From: a virus
IMG/VR virus record: IMGVR_UViG_3300030012_004195
Span: 1-33,833 of that record
DNA: 33,833 bases
Reading direction: 5' to 3' (one strand)
The first letter of the stretch is position 1. Each line of letters begins with the position of its first letter. Made by a program: the position numbers and the translations under genes. The notes under the pieces were generated by a model. The model did no database searches. It saw nothing but the letters and a program-made list of their open reading frames with translations, and had not been told where the DNA came from. Positions 2,457 through 27,762 of this stretch are shown here, piece after piece.

Positions 2457-2465
2457 CTATTTATA
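2457..2465 (-). promoter_or_regulatory. T4-like late promoter box
   Basis: TATAAATAG on the minus strand, with the ATG of the membrane-anchored gene (2434) about 22 bases further on and a ribosome binding site between. It lies back to back with the + strand tmRNA promoter at 2475-2503. Intergenic location and spacing fit a late promoter; the short box alone would not be convincing. Confidence 0.55.
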
Positions 2466-2474
2466 AAAAAAAGG

Positions 2475-2503
2475 TGTACAAATGTAAAATTATGTGGTAT
2501 AAT
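2475..2503 (+). promoter_or_regulatory. Sigma70-like promoter of the tmRNA gene
   Basis: TGTACA (2475-2480), 17 bp, TATAAT (2498-2503), with TGTGG immediately before the -10 box. It matches the promoter family found throughout this window. The predicted start near 2510 is about 20 bases before the acceptor piece of the permuted tmRNA. Confidence 0.85.
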
Positions 2504-2509
2504 ATATAC

Positions 2510-2778
2510 TATATAACGATGAAGCAAAGTGAATGGTTCACTGGACTCGGGGGCGGTACCCGACAGCTCCACCAAAAACATTCGATTATCGCGAGTAGTT
2601 TTGATGGGGCTGAAATAGGATCGACAGGTTCAATAGCGATGTGGAGTTATCCGGATGTAAGCTCGGTTAATGCGAACAAAACTCTAAATGCAAACGATAA
2701 TTTTGCACCTCAGGAGTTCGCTCAAGCAGCGTAATTCCTATGCGCTTGGAGAGAGCGTGGAAACAGAATCTCACCACT
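2510..2778 (+). ncRNA. ssrA: Circularly permuted (two-piece) tmRNA
   Basis: The gene order is inverted relative to a one-piece tmRNA. First comes the acceptor piece, with CACTGGACTC, a GGGGGCGGTACCC T-arm-like segment and the mature end CAGCTCCACCA (2564-2574). A spacer of about 31 bases follows (2575-2605). Then the coding piece begins GGGGCTGAAATAGGATCGAC (from 2606). GGGGCTG pairs with CAGCTCC over 7 bp, and the third pair is G-U, the alanyl-tRNA synthetase identity element. The tag frame lies at 2672-2734. Permuted ssrA genes with processing of the spacer are known from alphaproteobacteria and some cyanobacteria; the tag is of alphaproteobacterial type. The outer boundaries are approximate. 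It would rescue stalled ribosomes together with host SmpB. Confidence 0.93.
2672..2734 (+). other. tmRNA tag-peptide reading frame
   Basis: Starting at the GCG resume codon, the tag reads ANKTLNANDNFAPQEFAQAA and ends at TAA 2732-2734. ANDNFA is a hallmark of alphaproteobacterial tags. The tag is longer than the usual 10-15 residues and ends in QAA where most tags end in LAA or VAA, the ClpXP recognition end. The exact resume codon is inferred from the alanine convention. Confidence 0.88.
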
Positions 2779-3269: not shown

Positions 3270-3356
3270 ATGGCACCAAATCCACACTACATTAATATGT
3301 TAATTAATATTGGTATTTTTGGTATGTTAGTATACGTAGCAATACAAGTATCTTGA
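3270..3356 (+). CDS. 28-residue hydrophobic micro-protein
   Basis: ATG 3270 follows a strong AAAAAGGAGAAAGATT ribosome binding site. The product, starting MAPNPHYINM, is mostly one membrane-spanning stretch (LINIGIFGMLVYVAIQV). Its TGA overlaps the TTG start of the downstream oxygenase gene (TTGA), so it may serve mainly to bring ribosomes to that weak start. Support is the ribosome binding site and the overlap; no homologue is known to me. Confidence 0.65.
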   Translation: MAPNPHYINMLINIGIFGMLVYVAIQVS

Positions 3357-3844
3357 TTACAGAAATAAACATTTCTTTTGATAAGCAAAAAGTTATAGAT
3401 GAAATAAACACTCTTGACTTACAACCTGGTCATTCTAATAATTGGTGGAGAGCTAGAACAGAAGAAAGCAAAAGATTTTGGTATAAAACAGATACATGGT
3501 TAAAAACTATTATTGAAGATACTAGCAACTTACCAGAAATTTCACGGTTAAATTCTATCTTTAAATGTGATATTATATATGTTTACAAGCAGCTTGCTAA
3601 TTCTAATCTGCCAAAACATAGAGACTACGATATTATAACAGCAATTAATATGTTGTTATCAGACGAAGTTGCGCCGATTACTTTTGATCATGGTGATGAA
3701 TATTATAAAAATGCATTAATAGATGTTTCACAAAAACATAGCGTAAAGCCTTATCCAAAAGATAGATTATTATTAAAGTTTGCTTGGCATAAAAAAACGT
3801 TTAAAGAAATAAAAAATGAATTAAGAGAAAAATGTTTAATTTAA
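3353..3844 (+). CDS. Probable 2OG-Fe(II) oxygenase (prolyl-hydroxylase-like fold)
   Basis: 163 residues from TTG 3353. The C-terminal half carries the facial triad pattern: H89-R-D91 (LPKHRDYD), a beta segment AINMLLSDEVAPITF, then H129 (SQKHSVKP) and R138 (KDRLLLKF) as the likely 2-oxoglutarate-binding arginine. This order and spacing resemble small double-stranded beta-helix dioxygenases seen in marine phages. Substrate unknown. No in-frame ATG precedes the motif, and TTG overlaps the preceding stop, so coupled translation is likely. It overlaps the desaturase gene by 13 bases. Confidence 0.7.
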   Translation: MITEINISFDKQKVIDEINTLDLQPGHSNNWWRARTEESKRFWYKTDTWLKTIIEDTSNLPEISRLNSIFKCDIIYVYKQLANSNLPKHRDYDIITAINMLLSDEVAPITFDHGDEYYKNALIDVSQKHSVKPYPKDRLLLKFAWHKKTFKEIKNELREKCLI

Positions 3845-4545
3845 AAACAACATATAAATTGTTAATCAATCACAGTTTATGTCATATTGCGTTAGTGTAT
3901 GGCATATTTTATGGTACTTGGTGGATGTGGATAGCAGGGTTTGCATGGTATTATTTTATTACTATCGCTTCATCAAGTGCAGGTTATCACAGGTTCTATT
4001 CACACGAAGCTTTTAAGGCTGGTAAGTGGTTTGAATACTTTACAAATATACTAAGTTTATTCATAGGTTCAGGTCCGTATTTGACAAGAGCTGCGATACA
4101 TAGACAGCATCATGCATACTCTGATACTGATAAGGATCCGCAGTCACCTACACACTACGGATTTTGGCGAATATATTTTAACTTATGGGGATTAGAACAA
4201 AAAATTGAAAGAAAGTTTTTTAAAGGACTTATTAACAACAAGATACTTAAGTTTTGGCATGATCATTATTTTAAGATGGTTGCAGTGCTAGTTGTAACGT
4301 TATTTGCAATTGATCCATTGTTGTTAGTATTTGCATATGCGTTACCGTGTGTATTGAGTTCACATCTATTTGGATTATTTAACGCATACTTACACAAAAC
4401 TGGTGAGGCAACTAACAACACTTTGATCAATCTTTTTACTGCAGGTGAAGGGTATCATAAAGCACATCACGACAATTCTAAGAAATTAAGACACGGTCCA
4501 ATAGATCCTACATATTTCTTTATAAAATTAATACGGAGTACGTAA
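3832..4545 (+). CDS. Fatty acid desaturase (acyl-CoA delta-9 type)
   Basis: 237 residues with the three histidine boxes of the membrane desaturase family: H53-RFYS-H58, H90-RQ-HH (93-94) and H209-KA-HH (212-213), plus NAYLHK before the last box. Hydrophobic segments at about 18-50, 68-85 and 150-180 fit a four-helix membrane enzyme with a di-iron centre. It would introduce a cis double bond into fatty acyl chains, changing host membrane fluidity. The size is shorter than cellular enzymes (about 300 residues) but all boxes are intact. It overlaps oxygenase genes on both sides and so belongs to one operon. Confidence 0.93.
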   Translation: MFNLKTTYKLLINHSLCHIALVYGIFYGTWWMWIAGFAWYYFITIASSSAGYHRFYSHEAFKAGKWFEYFTNILSLFIGSGPYLTRAAIHRQHHAYSDTDKDPQSPTHYGFWRIYFNLWGLEQKIERKFFKGLINNKILKFWHDHYFKMVAVLVVTLFAIDPLLLVFAYALPCVLSSHLFGLFNAYLHKTGEATNNTLINLFTAGEGYHKAHHDNSKKLRHGPIDPTYFFIKLIRST

Positions 4546-5249
4546 TGGAAGTAACAATACAAGACTGGAAAGAAAGAGACTTAACGACTCTTAAAAATAA
4601 AGATACGGACTTGATAATCATAGAAAATACGCCACCGTCACAAATGGAAATATTTAAGTTTGTAAGTCAATACTATACTGTCGTAGGACAGAATCCAATG
4701 GATACGATATTTCTTGACATCACTAGTAGCGGCGAAGGTCGTGGTAATCTTTATAGTAGTTCTGATTTGGAGTGGCACATGGACGGTGGTTACATGCAAG
4801 ATCCTGTTCATATCACCGGACTCTATGCAGTTGATGTAACTGATGACGCTGGTAGGACTATGTTTGTAAGTAACAGAATCGAATGCCCGATACCAGATAG
4901 ACTCGTATCTGCAAATATGGATAGGTTTACAAAGAGCGAGAGGTACGGATATAAGTTTAAGACAGAGGCAGACAGAAGATGGTTTCGATTGAAGTATCGT
5001 AACGTTAAACATCAGTTAGTACAAGAGGACTTAAAGAGTAAATACGTATTTTATTCAGAAGCGTACACTGACTTGCCGCCTAATGAGAAAAAGATTATGG
5101 AAGATGTTCTATACGCGCCTGACAGAATATACTATCACAAGTGGAAAAAAGGTGACTTAATGATAAGTAATAACCTTGCTACAAATCATAAACGTGAAGG
5201 TACGAGCGCAGGTAACAGACACTTATGGAGACTTGCTGGCGTATGTTAA
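4545..5249 (+). CDS. TauD-like 2-oxoglutarate dioxygenase
   Basis: 234 residues. LEWHMDGGY places H78 and D80 as iron ligands, preceded by the typical DL-x-W and followed by DDAGRTMF, the counterpart of the family GG-x-T-x-F turn. The distal histidine is H215 (NLATNHKREG), and R225/R229 in NRHLWRL is the 2OG-binding region, as in TauD and gamma-butyrobetaine hydroxylase relatives. KKGDLMISNN before it is the usual GD-x-x-xxNN strand. Substrate cannot be read. Start by TAATG overlap with the desaturase. Confidence 0.88.
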   Translation: MEVTIQDWKERDLTTLKNKDTDLIIIENTPPSQMEIFKFVSQYYTVVGQNPMDTIFLDITSSGEGRGNLYSSSDLEWHMDGGYMQDPVHITGLYAVDVTDDAGRTMFVSNRIECPIPDRLVSANMDRFTKSERYGYKFKTEADRRWFRLKYRNVKHQLVQEDLKSKYVFYSEAYTDLPPNEKKIMEDVLYAPDRIYYHKWKKGDLMISNNLATNHKREGTSAGNRHLWRLAGVC

Positions 5250-5770
5250 TGAAAAATGTAAGTGCTGTAGAAGACATCAAAGAACTTTGCGAGCAGGCCA
5301 CCAACGATAACCATCGTAACGCAGAAAACTACGAATATAGTAAAATGAAAAAAAGATGGCATAAGTACGTGCAATTTCATGTGTTAGAAGATGAAGGCGT
5401 ACCAGTTGCAATGGGTGGCATTATGAAATTTAATGATAAGACTCTCCGTATATGTGATAGGTATTGTACGTTTAGATCTCATAGAAGATTTGGTATCAAT
5501 AAGTTTATTAAAAAAAATATACGATTTTGTGCAGAGCACTTTGTACCAGTGCAAACAGAATGGTCATTGCAAAATAACTTTCAACCTTTTATATCAATGA
5601 GTGCAGAAGTTAATAAGACTTATTCAATACAAAGATTTATAGAATATTTAAATCCACAGTATAATTACAGATTATTACCTGATTTGTATCTTACATGTAA
5701 TAGGAAAAGTATTAAGTGTCATCAACATATCATAACTAATAGTAACACAATAGAATTAGAAAAAGTTTAA
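5249..5770 (+). CDS. Hypothetical protein, possible GNAT-fold acetyltransferase
   Basis: 173 residues from ATG 5249, which overlaps the previous stop (TAATG). Residues 45-105 show a strand-turn-strand-helix order (FHVLEDEGVPVAMGGIMKF, DRYCTFRSHRRFGINKFI) reminiscent of the GNAT core, where RxxG contacts acetyl-CoA; here it reads RSHRRFG. This is weak. The rest has no motif. It is the last gene of the + strand arm of the oxygenase island and meets a minus-strand gene by a four-base overlap. Confidence 0.65.
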   Translation: MKNVSAVEDIKELCEQATNDNHRNAENYEYSKMKKRWHKYVQFHVLEDEGVPVAMGGIMKFNDKTLRICDRYCTFRSHRRFGINKFIKKNIRFCAEHFVPVQTEWSLQNNFQPFISMSAEVNKTYSIQRFIEYLNPQYNYRLLPDLYLTCNRKSIKCHQHIITNSNTIELEKV

Positions 5771-6039
5771 GAAATAGTTTTAACTGTAAATCTTCCTTTA
5801 TCTCTTATTCTTTCACTTGTTTTAAAAATTTCATGCCATGTTCCTTCACTGTCAGTCATAACATCAATAGTTGCATGCGTGCCAGATCCATAGCCTTCAC
5901 TAGTAAATTTACTCATATCCCACATAAGTATTCTGCCACTTTCAATCATTTCATTTCTATATTGAATCCACTCAGAATTTTCAGGCAACTCATCTGTTGA
6001 TTTAAGTTTTGAAACAAGTAATGTTTTGTGATATGCCAT
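5767..6039 (-). CDS. Hypothetical phage protein
   Basis: 90 residues, soluble, with an N-terminal strand (MAYHKTLLVSKLKS), a helix (ENSEWIQYRNEMIESGRI) and a Gly/Thr-rich C-terminal half (SEGYGSGTHATIDVMTDSEG). It is the last gene of the minus-strand arm of the island, eight bases after the preceding gene, and converges with the + arm. The ribosome binding site is weak. No family recognised. Confidence 0.65.
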   Translation of the reverse strand: MAYHKTLLVSKLKSTDELPENSEWIQYRNEMIESGRILMWDMSKFTSEGYGSGTHATIDVMTDSEGTWHEIFKTSERIRDKGRFTVKTIS

Positions 6040-6047
6040 AACTGTAT

Positions 6048-6908
6048 TTATATTACTTTCCCTTGTATTATCATATCTGTTGGATGCATTTTATTAAAAT
6101 ATTCATTAGTACTCCACATATCATTTTCGTACTTTATCCAAGGGCCAAAGCCTAATACAATACACGTTCTATTTTGTATTGTATCACTATAATCGTAACC
6201 CCATCGATGCATCATTCTTGTGTTCCAATGATAAGCATAACCCGGTTCAAATCGTATCTTATTTCCAGAATCTGCAAATTCTATATAGTAATCGTCACTA
6301 TATACTAACGGTATCAACAAGCGAGATATAATTTCGTTTGGTTCATCAACGTGCCACATAAATTCTTTATTATTATTGTATTCATCTGGTGCAATGGTGT
6401 GTGGTCGTATTTCTGCAATACGGCCTTGAAACATATTAACTTTTAACTTATCAAATAATACTCTTAGTGATTTCATGTATGTTACTTCATTGCGCATTCG
6501 AAGTCCAAGACAATCATTGTAAGAGTTTTTTAATGAAACTTGTGATTCATAACTTTTATTCTGAGTTTGCTCTACCCATTCTTCACGGCTTAACTGCGTT
6601 TGAGATCTCGGTTGTCCTAATCCTTGAGCATGTCTTGGTATATCAAAAATGTAATCCGGATTGTATGTCAATCCAACTCCACCATATAACACACTTCGGT
6701 TCCACTCAGAATGTCTTCTATGAACCATGCCGTACCACTCTTGTGAAAAGATCTCGTTAATGTCGTGTATCATACCTTCTATTGGTAGATCTAATGGTAC
6801 ACGAATATATTCATCTTTACATTCTGGTTCAATCGAACGTATTTTAAAAAGTTTTTTAAGTTGTCGATGACGAGTTTCTATGTCATTAAGAGTTGAATCA
6901 TGTATCAT
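6048..6908 (-). CDS. Probable 2OG-Fe(II) oxygenase, aspartyl-hydroxylase-like
   Basis: 286 residues. The C-terminal half contains FMWHVDEP (H186, D188), a strand pair ISRLLIPLVYSDD and KIRFEPGYAYHWNT, H234 (MMHRWGY) and R247 (NRTCIVLGFGPWI). That is the order H-x-D ... H ... R of the aspartyl/asparaginyl beta-hydroxylase type of cupin oxygenases. The N-terminal 150 residues are unassigned. It overlaps the paralogous gene upstream by 11 bases. Target (protein residue, lipid or metabolite) is unknown. Confidence 0.75.
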   Translation of the reverse strand: MIHDSTLNDIETRHRQLKKLFKIRSIEPECKDEYIRVPLDLPIEGMIHDINEIFSQEWYGMVHRRHSEWNRSVLYGGVGLTYNPDYIFDIPRHAQGLGQPRSQTQLSREEWVEQTQNKSYESQVSLKNSYNDCLGLRMRNEVTYMKSLRVLFDKLKVNMFQGRIAEIRPHTIAPDEYNNNKEFMWHVDEPNEIISRLLIPLVYSDDYYIEFADSGNKIRFEPGYAYHWNTRMMHRWGYDYSDTIQNRTCIVLGFGPWIKYENDMWSTNEYFNKMHPTDMIIQGKVI

Positions 6909-7479
6909 ATGTTGGATTTCTCCATTTATCTAATATCTCTGGTCGACTTACTGTCATATGAAAAGCAGAATTCTTTATCATTCTATCGTATATTTCATTT
7001 GATTCGCCATGCCACGGTGCACCTACGCATAACGTAATCTTTTCTTCTTCATCTGGATCAATACTGTGTGGGTGTCCGCCGTCCATACTGTAACTATCAT
7101 AGTGTGGTGGCACATAAACTTTATTATAATCTCTGTCAATAAAGTATAACTTACCAACATTTCCGTTTAAAACAAGTCTGTATTTCTGATGTAATGATCC
7201 AATCTCTGATTTTTTAGTGTCAATATGTACGTTAAGTCCTGTGTTTGGTGCAGTTCTCAGTATTGAAACACGGCCGGGTGGATTCATAAAAGGAAATATT
7301 TTTTCTCTACATACTCTTAATAATATAGGACACGCCTTACTAGAAGTATCAATTGACGCTATTCTACAACCACGAAAGTCATTATAATAATAAGATTGTG
7401 GCGGTAGATTCATCACCTCATCAAGCATGTCAATCTTTTCTTGGTCAGTTACACCAATATCAATCGCAGAAAATGTCAC
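6898..7479 (-). CDS. Probable 2OG-Fe(II) oxygenase, second aspartyl-hydroxylase-like
   Basis: 193 residues from a GTG start at 7479. GLNVHIDTKK gives H85 and D87, and GGHPHSIDP gives H136/H138 as distal ligand. KITLCVGAPW is the last strand, aligned by eye with RTCIVLGFGPW of the neighbour; the arginine expected to bind 2-oxoglutarate is replaced by K147 or lies elsewhere (R70, R75 and R101 are candidates). LRTAPNTGLNVHID is typical of the aspartyl-hydroxylase entry strand. It is probably a diverged paralogue of the next gene, with which it overlaps. Confidence 0.72.
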   Translation of the reverse strand: MTFSAIDIGVTDQEKIDMLDEVMNLPPQSYYYNDFRGCRIASIDTSSKACPILLRVCREKIFPFMNPPGRVSILRTAPNTGLNVHIDTKKSEIGSLHQKYRLVLNGNVGKLYFIDRDYNKVYVPPHYDSYSMDGGHPHSIDPDEEEKITLCVGAPWHGESNEIYDRMIKNSAFHMTVSRPEILDKWRNPTYDT

Positions 7480-7496
7480 GGTGTAAATCTCACGTT

Positions 7497-7658
7497 TTAC
7501 ATATTCTCATTCTTACGCTTAAGACAATAATTATTAAACATCGCCATATTGAACCATATCATAAACACTGACATTATCGGCGCATAAGGAAATATCTTAT
7601 AACATATTAATAACATACAACTGGTGATACCAACCATAAAATGATCACTTGGCTTCAT
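7497..7658 (-). CDS. Small two-helix membrane protein
   Basis: 53 residues starting MKPSDHFMVG with two hydrophobic segments (about residues 8-24 and 26-42) separated by KIFPY and ending in a basic tail (KRKNENM). The start has GAGGAT at the right distance. The gene sits 17 bases before the GTG of an oxygenase gene and overlaps the preceding gene by 14 bases, so it is part of the minus-strand operon. Topology suggests both ends in the cytoplasm or a holin-like hairpin; no evidence decides. Confidence 0.65.
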   Translation of the reverse strand: MKPSDHFMVGITSCMLLICYKIFPYAPIMSVFMIWFNMAMFNNYCLKRKNENM

Positions 7659-7821
7659 TGGTAATCCTCATTAATTGATATAATCTCTGTCTTAATTCTT
7701 CTATCTTTCTCTTATAATCGTGCATGTAGTCTCTTACAATCACTTTCTGTTCACTTGTCTTAGTCCTCATACTACTAAAATCTAACTTCTTCATCGGTTT
7801 CTGCTTAGTATTATATCCCAT
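7645..7821 (-). CDS. Small basic coiled-coil protein
   Basis: 58 residues, starting MGYNTKQKPM. The C-terminal part (VIVRDYMHDYKRKIEELRQR) is a charged amphipathic helix. A purine-rich GAAGAAG precedes the start by about nine bases. It overlaps genes on both sides in different frames, which is normal for this operon. The family is not recognised. Confidence 0.55.
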   Translation of the reverse strand: MGYNTKQKPMKKLDFSSMRTKTSEQKVIVRDYMHDYKRKIEELRQRLYQLMRITNEAK

Positions 7822-7964
7822 AAACTTAACTTCTTCTTTCTATATGTGTAATCTCTATTAAAACATCTATAATTAAACCAACTATAGTATATACTACTTA
7901 TACGTCCGTATGTAGGGGCAATGTCATGATAGTATTCTTTCCAGTCTCTGAAAGAACTCCTCAT
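7791..7964 (-). CDS. Small Tyr/Arg-rich protein, first gene of minus-strand arm
   Basis: 57 residues beginning MRSSFRDWKEYYHDIAPTYG, rich in Tyr, Arg and aromatic residues and with a basic C-terminus. The ribosome binding site is poor, so the start is uncertain. It lies about 40 bases downstream of a plausible minus-strand promoter (8006-8034) and overlaps the next gene by 31 bases. No homologue recognised. Confidence 0.5.
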   Translation of the reverse strand: MRSSFRDWKEYYHDIAPTYGRISSIYYSWFNYRCFNRDYTYRKKKLSLWDIILSRNR

Positions 7965-8705: not shown

Positions 8706-9374
8706 ATGTCGCATCTTATATGTAATATACCAAATCAAAAGGTTTGGGTACGCCGTGAATACCTACGAGATCTCGAGGATGGACACGGTCAATTCGTCGA
8801 AGGCCACTGGGTCACTGCAAAGTCCATACCGGGTCGCGCCTTTTATTTCGAGACTTTTCTTCCAGAGTACGGTGCTCTATACGATAAGCTACCGATATCT
8901 GCATTTGTTTCTTCTCCAGAGACTCCTTCATTAGATATGGCTTTACCTGAGTTGCAGTTCTGGAATTGTATGGACTATGGTATTACTTGCATACAGAAAC
9001 AGTTCATTGGTTCTATGGACTATGAAGTATATACTAAGAGTCATGGTAGAGTCAAAGGTACTTACATTGCTACTCTTGATAATTACCATATACATTCTGA
9101 TGAAGTTGATTATTCTACAGCAGAACAGCCAGAAGAGCACAAGTCTTTTAACTTGTTAGAGTTGGAGAACGGGCAGTACGCTCTGTATCCGAACAATCGC
9201 ATGCGTGTATATGATAATAGTCTCACACCAAAAGAACCGAAGATGCCAGACTTTAAAGTTTCTACAGAATACTATCAGGTCGAGAATGGCAATGAATATC
9301 GGTTAGGTGACACCGAGGAATACTATTATGATATTACGGCTGAAAAAAATCCCCTTAAAAAAAATGCGAAGTAA
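8706..9374 (+). CDS. Conserved hypothetical phage protein
   Basis: 222 residues, soluble and rich in Tyr, Glu and aromatic residues. The N-terminal region (CNIPNQKVWVRREYLRDLED, GHWVTAKSIPGRAFYFE) resembles proteins I recall from T4-like marine phages; the C-terminal third is acidic and Tyr-rich (STEYYQVENGNEYRLGDTEE). No ribosome binding site is evident before the ATG, only T-rich repeats. It overlaps the nitroreductase-like gene by 11 bases. Function unknown. Confidence 0.75.
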   Translation: MSHLICNIPNQKVWVRREYLRDLEDGHGQFVEGHWVTAKSIPGRAFYFETFLPEYGALYDKLPISAFVSSPETPSLDMALPELQFWNCMDYGITCIQKQFIGSMDYEVYTKSHGRVKGTYIATLDNYHIHSDEVDYSTAEQPEEHKSFNLLELENGQYALYPNNRMRVYDNSLTPKEPKMPDFKVSTEYYQVENGNEYRLGDTEEYYYDITAEKNPLKKNAK

Positions 9375-25548: not shown

Positions 25549-27762
25549 ATGCAACAATTTGTTGACACAAGAGATTTTTTGTCTCAGACTAAGTTCTACG
25601 AAGGCTATTCACGCTTTAAAGACGATGAAGGTAGATATGAATCTTGGGACGAGGCTGTTGATCGTGTTATTGAAATGCACGACAAAAACTATATGAATAA
25701 TAATAATGAATTATCCACTTACTTAGATGAAGCTCGTACGGCATATAAAGAACAACGTGTTCTTGGTGCACAGCGTGCTTTACAATTCGGTGGTGAACAA
25801 TTAATGAAACATCAAATGAGAATGTATAACTGTACTTCGTCATACGTTGATAGAGCAGCATTCTTTGGTGAAGTGTTTTATATATTACTATGTGGTGCAG
25901 GTGCAGGATTTTCTGTACAAAAGCATCATATCAAAAAGTTACCAAAAATTCAAAACAGAACTAAACAAGCGAAAGGTTACATAGTTGAAGATTCAATTGA
26001 AGGTTGGGCTTCAGCTTTAGACGTATTAATGTCTTCTTTTTTTGTTGGAGGAGGTAAATATCCAGAATATGAAGGAAGAAGAGTGTACTTCGATCTATCA
26101 CAAATAAGACCTAAAGGTGCTTTTATATCAGGTGGATTTAAAGCTCCAGGGCCAAATGGTCTACGTAGGTCTTTAGATAAAATAGAACACTTATTACAAG
26201 GTATTGTATTAGACTCAAAAGAGCCAATAGCGATTAAACCAATAAACGCATATGATATTACAATGCATGCAGCAGATGCTGTATTATCTGGTGGCGTTAG
26301 AAGATCAGCAACCATTTGTCTTTTTTCACCTGATGATGAAGAAATGATGAATGCAAAAACTGGCAATTGGTTTATGGATAATCCACAAAGAGGCAGGTCA
26401 AATAACTCTGCAGTTATTGTAAGAGATGAGACCACACCAGAACAGTTTGGCAAGATTATGGAATCTGTTAAACAGTTTGGCGAACCAGGGTTCGTCTTCG
26501 TTGAATCAAAAGAACATACTACAAATCCATGTGTTGAGATTGGTATGTATCCGCAGATCAATAAGAAGTCAGGTTGGCAAGGTTGCAACCTAACTGAAAT
26601 CAACGGAGGCAAATGCAATACCGAGGAAGACTTTTATAAAGCATGCAGAGCAGCGTCTATCCTCGGTACCCTACAAGCAGGGTACACAGACTTCAAGTTT
26701 TTAACTGATACATCAAAACTTATTTTTGATAGAGAAGCTTTACTTGGAGTTTCAATCACCGGATGGATGAACAATCCTGATATTCTTTTTAATGAAAAGA
26801 TACTTGAAAAAGGTGCTCAGATAGTTAAAGACGTAAATAGAGAAGTTGCTAGAATAATTGGAATTAATGCAGCTGCTAGAACTACATGCGTTAAGCCAAG
26901 TGGTAACGCTTCTGTGTTATTACAAACAGCATCTGGCATTCATGCTGAGCATTCGAATATGTATATTAGAAATGTACAAATGAATAAAGAATCAGAAATA
27001 ACTCAAGCAATTATGAAGACTAATCCTTACATGGTTGAAGAATCAGTTTGGTCTGCTGGTGGAACAGATGTTGTTGTTTCATTTCCAATAATGCCTAATA
27101 AAGGATCAATGTATAAAGATGACTTATTAGGTGTTAAGCATTTAGAGCTAGTGAAGAAAGCTCAAAAGCATTGGGTTGAAGCTGGTACTAATGAAGAACT
27201 TTGTGCTGATAAAGGTGTAAGACATAATGTATCAAATACAATTATTGTAGATGATTGGGATGAAGTTGAAAAATATGTTTTTGAAAATAGACATTCATTT
27301 GCTGGTATTTCATTCTTACCTATGACTGGAGATAAAGACTACAATCAAGCTCCAAATACTGCAGTTATTACTTCAAAAGAAATGGTAAAGAAGTATGGCG
27401 ATGCTGCCGTTTTTGCATCAGGTATGGTTGTTGACGCACTAAAATGTTATAATAACTTATGGGATGCATGCTCTACAGCAAAAGGATTTGGTGAAGACAT
27501 ATCATTAGAAACTTCAGAAAATGCATTAAAAAGAGATTGGATAAGAAGGTTTGGTAAGTTTGCTGATAACTATTTAAATTCAGATCAAGCGCTTGCTGAG
27601 CACTGTTTAAAAGATGCATATTTATTGCATAAATGGAATAAAATACAATCAACTTTAAAAACTGTCGACTGGAAAGAAGACATAACAGAAAAGAAGTATA
27701 CTGATGTTGATACACTCGCTGCAGCCGCCTGTGCAGGTGGCGCCTGTGAAATCGATTTCTAA
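25549..27762 (+). CDS. nrdJ: Class II (adenosylcobalamin-dependent) ribonucleotide reductase
   Basis: 737 residues, the normal length of the monomeric B12-dependent enzyme. C95 (RMYNCTSSYVDR) and C346 (WQGCNLTEIN) are the active-site redox pair; N326-P-C328-V-E330 holds the thiyl-radical cysteine and its partners; C728-x4-C733 at the end (CAGGACEIDF) is the swinging reductant pair. The order and spacing agree with the Lactobacillus leichmannii-type ribonucleoside triphosphate reductase. It makes deoxynucleotides for phage DNA without oxygen or NrdB, using host or environmental B12. It has its own promoter and leads a transcript with three overlapping small genes. Confidence 0.96.
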   Translation: MQQFVDTRDFLSQTKFYEGYSRFKDDEGRYESWDEAVDRVIEMHDKNYMNNNNELSTYLDEARTAYKEQRVLGAQRALQFGGEQLMKHQMRMYNCTSSYVDRAAFFGEVFYILLCGAGAGFSVQKHHIKKLPKIQNRTKQAKGYIVEDSIEGWASALDVLMSSFFVGGGKYPEYEGRRVYFDLSQIRPKGAFISGGFKAPGPNGLRRSLDKIEHLLQGIVLDSKEPIAIKPINAYDITMHAADAVLSGGVRRSATICLFSPDDEEMMNAKTGNWFMDNPQRGRSNNSAVIVRDETTPEQFGKIMESVKQFGEPGFVFVESKEHTTNPCVEIGMYPQINKKSGWQGCNLTEINGGKCNTEEDFYKACRAASILGTLQAGYTDFKFLTDTSKLIFDREALLGVSITGWMNNPDILFNEKILEKGAQIVKDVNREVARIIGINAAARTTCVKPSGNASVLLQTASGIHAEHSNMYIRNVQMNKESEITQAIMKTNPYMVEESVWSAGGTDVVVSFPIMPNKGSMYKDDLLGVKHLELVKKAQKHWVEAGTNEELCADKGVRHNVSNTIIVDDWDEVEKYVFENRHSFAGISFLPMTGDKDYNQAPNTAVITSKEMVKKYGDAAVFASGMVVDALKCYNNLWDACSTAKGFGEDISLETSENALKRDWIRRFGKFADNYLNSDQALAEHCLKDAYLLHKWNKIQSTLKTVDWKEDITEKKYTDVDTLAAAACAGGACEIDF

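Follow-up and report, generated by a model that had tools for sequence, protein, structure and literature searches.

In this work, we describe a cluster of enzyme genes at positions 3353-7479 of IMGVR_UViG_3300030012_004195, an IMG/VR virus record analysed here at its full length of 33,833 nucleotides (the window). The window is a linear virus fragment of 33.8 kb, carrying, among its phage genes, one for a gp32-like protein, and the cluster is confirmed as an island of four 2-oxoglutarate (2OG)-Fe(II) oxygenases, a desaturase and a probable acetyltransferase, laid out in two convergent arms. The reading we favour, tentatively and with a probability of about 0.37, is that of an accessory enzyme island of a T4-like phage, located at the transfer-messenger RNA (tmRNA) locus, whose plus-strand block would make or remodel one acyl-containing or surface molecule of the host during infection. 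Tailoring of such a molecule fits best because the chemistry encoded amounts to desaturation, hydroxylation and acyl transfer.

A first-pass annotation, made from the letters alone, had proposed four 2OG-Fe(II) oxygenases and one desaturase in convergent arms. This composition was borne out, strongly for the first gene of the plus arm, open reading frame (ORF) 3353, and for the TauD oxygenase, moderately for the two AspH-like proteins, AspH1 and AspH2. All the genes it listed are present in place, and a 90-residue ORF at 5767-6039 had been missed.

Enzymes of the island

The plus arm opens with a P4H/AspH-like oxygenase, followed by an acyl desaturase, then a TauD oxygenase and, last, a GNAT-like protein, neighbouring genes overlapping by 1-25 nt; the minus arm contains the 90-residue protein and the two AspH-like oxygenases, whose genes overlap by 11 nt. 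The ends of the two arms share four bases, 5767-5770.

ORF 3353 (3353-3844, plus strand, TTG start, 163 residues) is strongly supported, on the strength of its predicted fold, as a member of the 2OG-Fe(II) oxygenase superfamily. Its AlphaFold2 model (predicted local distance difference test score, pLDDT, 88.5) is a confident 2OG/Fe(II) double-stranded helix and, when compared with solved structures by Foldseek and VIA, is matched best by PHD2 (6yw3: Z 13.5, root-mean-square deviation 2.5, 141 residues aligned), along with a beta-hydroxylase (7v4m: Z 12.9, 2.0, 124 aligned), the P4H of an EF-Tu complex (4iw3: Z 12.3, 3.0, 141 aligned) and AspH (5apa: Z 11.5, 3.5, 139 aligned). Named 2OG enzymes form the majority of the 50 listed matches. 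With PHD2, AspH and the 7v4m enzyme ORF 3353 shares both the fold and the HxD...H...R pattern; it differs from them in sequence, identity being only 8-17% among the listed rows. Residues H89-x-D91, H129 and R138 are invariant in all 14 aligned family members, an alignment which omits the paralogue L007:4564-5046, devoid of the first histidine; in a second alignment, including this paralogue, H89 is kept in 9 of 10 rows. The protein matches no Pfam or PHROGs family at E 0.001 in the copies used here, its family profile has no match among PDB sequences, and tblastn finds none among the phage records.

The membrane acyl desaturase (3832-4545, plus strand) scores 48.5 bits against PF00487 (cut-off 29.7), and its profile matches the acyl-CoA desaturase 4ymk at E 3e-26. 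The histidines of the di-iron boxes (H53, H58, H90, H93, H94, H188, H209, H212 and H213) are kept in all seven aligned rows. Di-iron desaturases of this family type act on acyl chains. Only 3 of 50,697 phage records are matched by this gene, two labelled Acinetobacter phage MD-2021a and the third being the SAR11 phage Mosig. When opened, one MD-2021a record (CAKLQH020000002.1, 50237-60851) reads as a bacterial chromosome, with trpC, btuB and baeRS.

The TauD/TfdA-family protein (4545-5249, plus strand) is likewise strongly supported as a member of the oxygenase superfamily, here by sequence: it scores 67.9 bits against PF02668 (cut-off 27), and profile comparison with PDB links it to TauD-family enzymes of solved structure, among them carbapenem synthase 1nx4 (E 3e-13). 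Of its iron triad (H78-x-D80 and H215), both histidines are found in 7 of 7 rows and D80 in 6 of 7. No phage record is matched by tblastn.

The last gene of the plus arm (5225-5770) encodes a probable, weakly supported GNAT-like acyltransferase. The acetyltransferase suggested earlier can be called GNAT-like only, as its PF00583 score, 15 bits, lies below the cut-off of 20.7; relatives in contig L008 (19.6) and in Mosig (17.8 bits) are also below it, and the candidates of L005 and L007 have no PF00583 match. Against PDB, its profile finds one uncharacterised protein, whose matching stretches failed when taken alone, the other rows being at chance level. A further search of viral contigs returned nothing beyond those already collected, and no profile link joins the candidates of L007 and L016 to the window protein. 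Nor does a profile link join it to the Mosig acetyltransferase, for which the comparison relies on the annotation and the sub-threshold Pfam match.

In the minus arm, AspH1 (6048-6908, 286 residues) and AspH2 (6898-7479, GTG start, 193 residues) may be regarded, with moderate support, as putative 2OG-Fe(II) oxygenases. In AspH1, residues H186-x-D188, R196, H234 and R247 are invariant in 8 of 8 aligned rows, and hhalign aligns its HxD and H on those of an AspH-like set (E 8.5e-7), made of four phage proteins with matches of their own, at E around 1e-5, to beta- and proline hydroxylases of solved structure. Profile comparisons were controlled with 63 targets (36 window proteins, 24 shuffled or reversed copies and 3 locus ORFs). 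Against the AspH-like set, AspH1 scores 44.8, ORF 3353 36.2 and AspH2 only 20.0, for an unrelated background of up to 18.8; against the ORF 3353 family, AspH2 scores 37.0, TauD 21.9 and AspH1 18.6, the background reaching 18.4. By these scores, AspH1 and AspH2 are each tied to one oxygenase profile, not to both. In the profile alignment, H85, D87, H138 and K147 of AspH2 fall on the H, D, H and R of the ORF 3353 family, K147 occupying the place of the 2OG arginine.

The H-x-D...H sites, described initially as readable throughout, are indeed so in ORF 3353, AspH1 and, with the one deviating row, TauD; in AspH2 they are placed by profile alignment. Structure prediction, proposed as a check, was informative for ORF 3353 but not for AspH1, whose model has a pLDDT of 34.4. 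None of ORFs 3353, 6048 and 6898 has a Pfam match, Asp_Arg_Hydrox (PF05118) included, and they are therefore AspH-like without being members of that family. AspH1 also matches no PHROGs family at E 0.001, and its profile links neither to PDB sequences nor to AspH2, the ORF 3353 family or the oxygenase-like ORF of L019; tblastn of AspH1 and AspH2 against the phage records gave no match. AspH2 is nearly an orphan: no relative was confirmed in the viral contigs, and among the 13 other records surveyed below there is one weak match (G007, E 3e-5). A weak scan of genome contigs, using two short peptide patterns only, confirmed no cellular relative of either AspH1 or the desaturase.

The uncharacterised 90-residue protein (5767-6039, minus strand) has a homologue in contig L012, in the matching position between AspH1 and the GNAT-like gene, and no other clear profile link.

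Recurrence and constraint in related records

Recurrence was surveyed with profiles in 14 records: the window, 12 other viral contigs, which are fragments chosen by these same genes, and the Pelagibacter phage Mosig EXVC030M (MT647606.1). The desaturase was found in 9 records, TauD in 8, both in 6, the ORF 3353 family and AspH1 in 8 each, the GNAT profile in 6 and a tmRNA in 8.

The block made of the P4H-like oxygenase, desaturase, TauD and GNAT-like genes has an unchanged gene order, with overlaps, in L002 and L003, both of the contigs complete in this region (L004 breaks off within the desaturase). Identity to the window is 79-94% for the first three proteins and 64-82% for the GNAT-like one. 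Both contigs are without AspH1 and AspH2, absences which are soft, these records being fragments; in place of the minus arm there are ORF 3353-family paralogues, accompanied by a radical SAM gene in L002 and by another AspH-like gene in L003. AspH1 is present in seven other contigs, none of which carries both desaturase and TauD. In L012, devoid of these two genes, the GNAT homologue converges on the 90-residue homologue and AspH1 as it does in the window. Since the plus-arm block and the minus arm vary separately among L002, L003 and L012, at least two modules are present in the island.

A second arrangement is seen in L005 and L006, where the desaturase (76% identical) and TauD (58%) recur, convergent, beside repetitive, structural, tail-fibre-like ORFs, together with an AspH-like gene, a nitroreductase-like gene and one that overlaps TauD and is distantly related to GNAT (the nitroreductase and the tail fibres were named by reading). 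The GNAT-related copy of L005 reaches profile scores of 31.0 and 35.2, the best unrelated targets scoring 18.5 and 22.3. In Mosig, desaturase, TauD, an annotated N-acetyltransferase and two Asp_Arg_Hydrox proteins lie in one run, within 6.3 kb, beside annotated tail fibres. Finding the desaturase/TauD set in two genomic positions favours the view that it is a functional unit. A joint pathway, as first proposed for the whole island, is thus backed for the plus-arm block, and for the desaturase/TauD/acyltransferase-like set (in Mosig partly by annotation), but not for all six genes, L002 and L003 lacking AspH1 and AspH2; scattered occurrence in relatives, named at the outset as the outcome that would speak against it, is what we find for the minus arm, and not for the plus arm, bearing in mind that absences from fragments are soft.

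The same data bear on whether unrelated accessory genes, each with its own role, were simply gathered by recombination at a hot spot. The content of the minus arm varies between contigs, islands elsewhere hold other mixes and, according to the part of PMC7029224 available, pelagimyophages exchange cassettes in their host recognition region; a plus-arm block that retains order and overlaps, and a desaturase-TauD pair recurring at a second genome position, speak against such a process, which we consider somewhat unlikely.

Selection on the block was estimated from the ratio of nonsynonymous to synonymous substitutions (dN/dS, Nei-Gojobori). Between the window and L003, the ratio is 0.044 for the desaturase, 0.037 for TauD, 0.084 for the P4H-like gene and 0.118 for the GNAT-like gene; between the window and L002, it is 0.014, 0.038, 0.058 and 0.055, respectively, with DUF932 (0.124) and phrog_3704 (0.025) for comparison. 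As dS exceeds 1 in most pairs and is saturated in many, the ratios are rough and the safe conclusion is one of strong constraint only. Within these limits, desaturase and TauD appear to be the most constrained genes of the block in the window-L003 comparison. Ratios well below 1 in relatives indicate that these ORFs did not arise by chance.

Possible roles of the block

Following the favoured reading, the desaturase would introduce a double bond into an acyl chain, the 2OG oxygenases, drawing on iron, O2 and 2-oxoglutarate of the host, would oxidise this chain or its head group, by hydroxylation or in another way, and the GNAT-like protein would add an acyl group. An altered envelope, which may exclude competing phages or adjust the membrane, would be the likely benefit, by analogy with the glycosyltransferases of pelagimyophage islands, which have been read as remodelling the surface against coinfection (PMC7029224, in the part available). 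The minus-arm oxygenases may act on other targets, or represent alternative tailoring steps swapped between phages. Related islands hold radical SAM, sulfotransferase-like, AMP-binding, Rieske and nitroreductase-like genes, a content which points to tailoring chemistry. Lipid hydroxylases such as LpxO and OlsC offer a possible analogy.

Several findings weigh against this proposal. The desaturase occurs without TauD in records G007 and G009, and TauD without desaturase in G006 and G010; the GNAT-like protein falls short of its Pfam cut-off; the island of the window shows no recognisable acyl carrier, ligase or transporter; none of its oxygenases is assigned to a lipid hydroxylase family, and the top structural matches of ORF 3353 are hydroxylases of proteins, amino acids and antibiotic pathways. 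The substrate is a predicted one.

A different target would be the virion, the oxygenases hydroxylating tail-fibre or other structural proteins of the phage. The fold class does include peptide hydroxylases, and the relatives in L005, L006 and Mosig adjoin tail-fibre-like genes; in the window, no gene next to the island is a recognised structural one, none of the 19 window proteins scanned with PHROGs having been named as structural, and the desaturase would have no role. We regard modification of the virion as distinctly unlikely.

It was also suggested at first that the enzymes act as a sink, and this is not favoured by our results. In such a scheme, consumption of 2-oxoglutarate or oxygen, or production of succinate, would shift the nitrogen or energy metabolism of the host. 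Four 2OG enzymes do stand together, 1.3 kb upstream of the tmRNA there is a glutamine riboswitch, and a related idea, modulation of 2OG, was put forward in 2010 for cyanophages with many 2OG oxygenases (PMC3037559, available in part). The families are divergent, each retaining its own conserved residues, which suggests distinct substrates; moreover, desaturase and GNAT consume no 2OG and one abundant enzyme would suffice, so that a sink of 2OG, oxygen or nitrogen status seems quite improbable.

Among the closest parallels to the island of the window is that of Mosig (54.7-62.4 kb). Besides the gene set, Mosig has in common with the window an alpha-type tmRNA elsewhere in its genome. It differs in that its desaturase is only 35% identical, its island sits at the tail fibres and not at the tmRNA, and aminotransferase, FMN reductase, peroxiredoxin and MoaA-like genes are included. 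Related viruses of the ocean have been found before to carry enzyme islands of this kind. As far as the available text of PMC7029224 goes, the host recognition cluster of pelagimyophages is a hypervariable accessory island of T4-like phages, with tailoring enzymes and cassette exchange, defined between VrlC and gp14 and containing the tail fibres; in a freshwater group, there are a stearoyl-CoA desaturase as well as a 2OGFeDO protein. The window island lies instead between the tmRNA and phrog_3704, DUF932 and gp32, on a fragment in which VrlC and gp14 were not searched by name. Similarly, in the accessible parts of PMC3037559 and PMC9599517, cyanomyophages and pelagiphages are described with several divergent 2OG oxygenases per genome, P-HM1 and P-HM2 with two asparaginyl hydroxylases and one TauD, and the partner reported for the pelagipodophage 2OG oxygenase is a ferrochelatase, whereas in the window it is a desaturase. 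No clustered island was found in the first 50 kb of P-HM1, where TauD stands alone near gp32.

Expansions of 2OG oxygenases in marine phages are thus of a known kind; what is new, as far as our searches of the literature show, is the block of desaturase, TauD and GNAT at the tmRNA, together with the oxygenase families that have no match. Marine T4-like phages carry many 2OG oxygenases with no known substrate: a small, conserved and portable block, in which one of them has a desaturase and a GNAT-like gene as partners, limits the chemistry to be considered, and offers about four genes for joint expression.

The tmRNA locus and its surroundings

The tmRNA gene (2458-2778, plus strand) is of the alphaproteobacterial, permuted type, matching Rfam RF01849 (134 bits, E 1e-36) as well as RF04321. 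Among 14 named control genomes, RF01849 was found in Caulobacter only. ARAGORN calls the gene at 2478-2825, with the tag ANDNFAPQEFAQAA, whose composition includes two Asn and one Asp.

Oxygenase islands adjoin the tmRNA in all seven viral contigs bearing one (the window, L002, L003, L004, L012, L007 and L016), the nearest oxygenase gene being 572 nt away in the window and 412, 877, 412, 16, 1427 and 15 nt away in the others; with positions drawn at random on each contig, a distance this short would arise in 6.7, 7.3, 11.6, 3.9, 0.5, 6.3 and 1.1% of cases, respectively. The seven contigs were fetched by island genes, a biased sample, and correspond to about three distinct arrangements rather than seven events. 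In L016 and L007, AspH1 starts 15-16 nt past the end of the tmRNA model. In Mosig, the annotation shows no oxygenase for about 5 kb to each side of the tmRNA. As oxygenase islands recur at the tmRNA, this site represents a second variable locus, beyond the tail-fibre island.

This proximity may reflect hydroxylation linked to translation, with the small P4H/AspH oxygenases modifying ribosomal proteins, elongation factors or other translation proteins, and residing with the tmRNA since both tune host translation. Besides the adjacency itself, the P4H-EF-Tu complex among the structural matches of ORF 3353 and the presence in L012 of a tRNA-Asn and a class II synthetase-like gene next to the tmRNA are in its favour. 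It is countered by the Mosig tmRNA, by the desaturase and TauD, which do not fit, and by the chance that the locus is a mere insertion hot spot, and we judge it unlikely. A narrower form, in which phage tmRNA and small P4H/AspH oxygenases would be a functional pair, hydroxylating translation components or nascent or tagged peptides and so redirecting host translation or proteolysis during infection, is very improbable. In L012, the region 3316-4230 comprises the tRNA-Asn beside the tmRNA and the class II (D/K/N) synthetase-like ORF (273 residues, PF00152, E 7e-17).

The virus is a bacterial virus, probably of alphaproteobacteria: the alpha-type tmRNA suggests an alphaproteobacterial host, and gp32, together with a member of the cyanophage/pelagiphage family phrog_3704, suggests a T4-like phage. 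No near-identical DNA was found among the phage records. A ribonucleotide reductase (25549-27762), 61.5% identical to the enzyme of Rhizobium phage RHph_I1_18, would fit such a host. The tmRNA flanks the island on one side; phrog_3704 and DUF932 and, farther away, gp32 are on the other. The phrog_3704 protein (8706-9374) belongs to a family that cyanophage records label as ferredoxin or PurM; its sequence, poor in cysteines, is on reading unlike that of a ferredoxin, and 114 phage records, mostly of cyanophages, match the protein. Immediately around the island, we read from the sequence a 28-residue ORF (3271-3357) and find three small minus-strand ORFs of 53-58 residues (7497-7964). Promoters and terminators show no excess over shuffled sequences, and no terminator-like site is present at the convergent stops.

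The glutamine riboswitch aptamer (RF01739, 56.5 bits, gathering threshold 35) is at 1104-1152 on the minus strand. Downstream on its strand there are ORFs of at most 93 residues, that of 93 residues being antisense to plus-strand ORFs. The same aptamer was detected in L012, at 5923-5971.

Other contigs carry related gene groups. In L018 (5998-10416), AspH1 is followed by an AMP-binding protein (PF00501) and by an ORF which, by reading, resembles a tricarboxylate-binding protein and has no Pfam match at E 0.01. A single 41-kb contig (L008, 8892-12287, and L019, 997-2417) features three desaturases, a Rieske protein and, with labels given by reading, two more HxD oxygenase-like ORFs and one resembling serine hydroxymethyltransferase. 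The island of L016 (353-7237) is denser, with AspH1, two TauD-family and four ORF 3353-family oxygenases in the 7 kb past the tmRNA, along with radical SAM-like (a label by reading), sulfotransferase-like and kinase-like genes.

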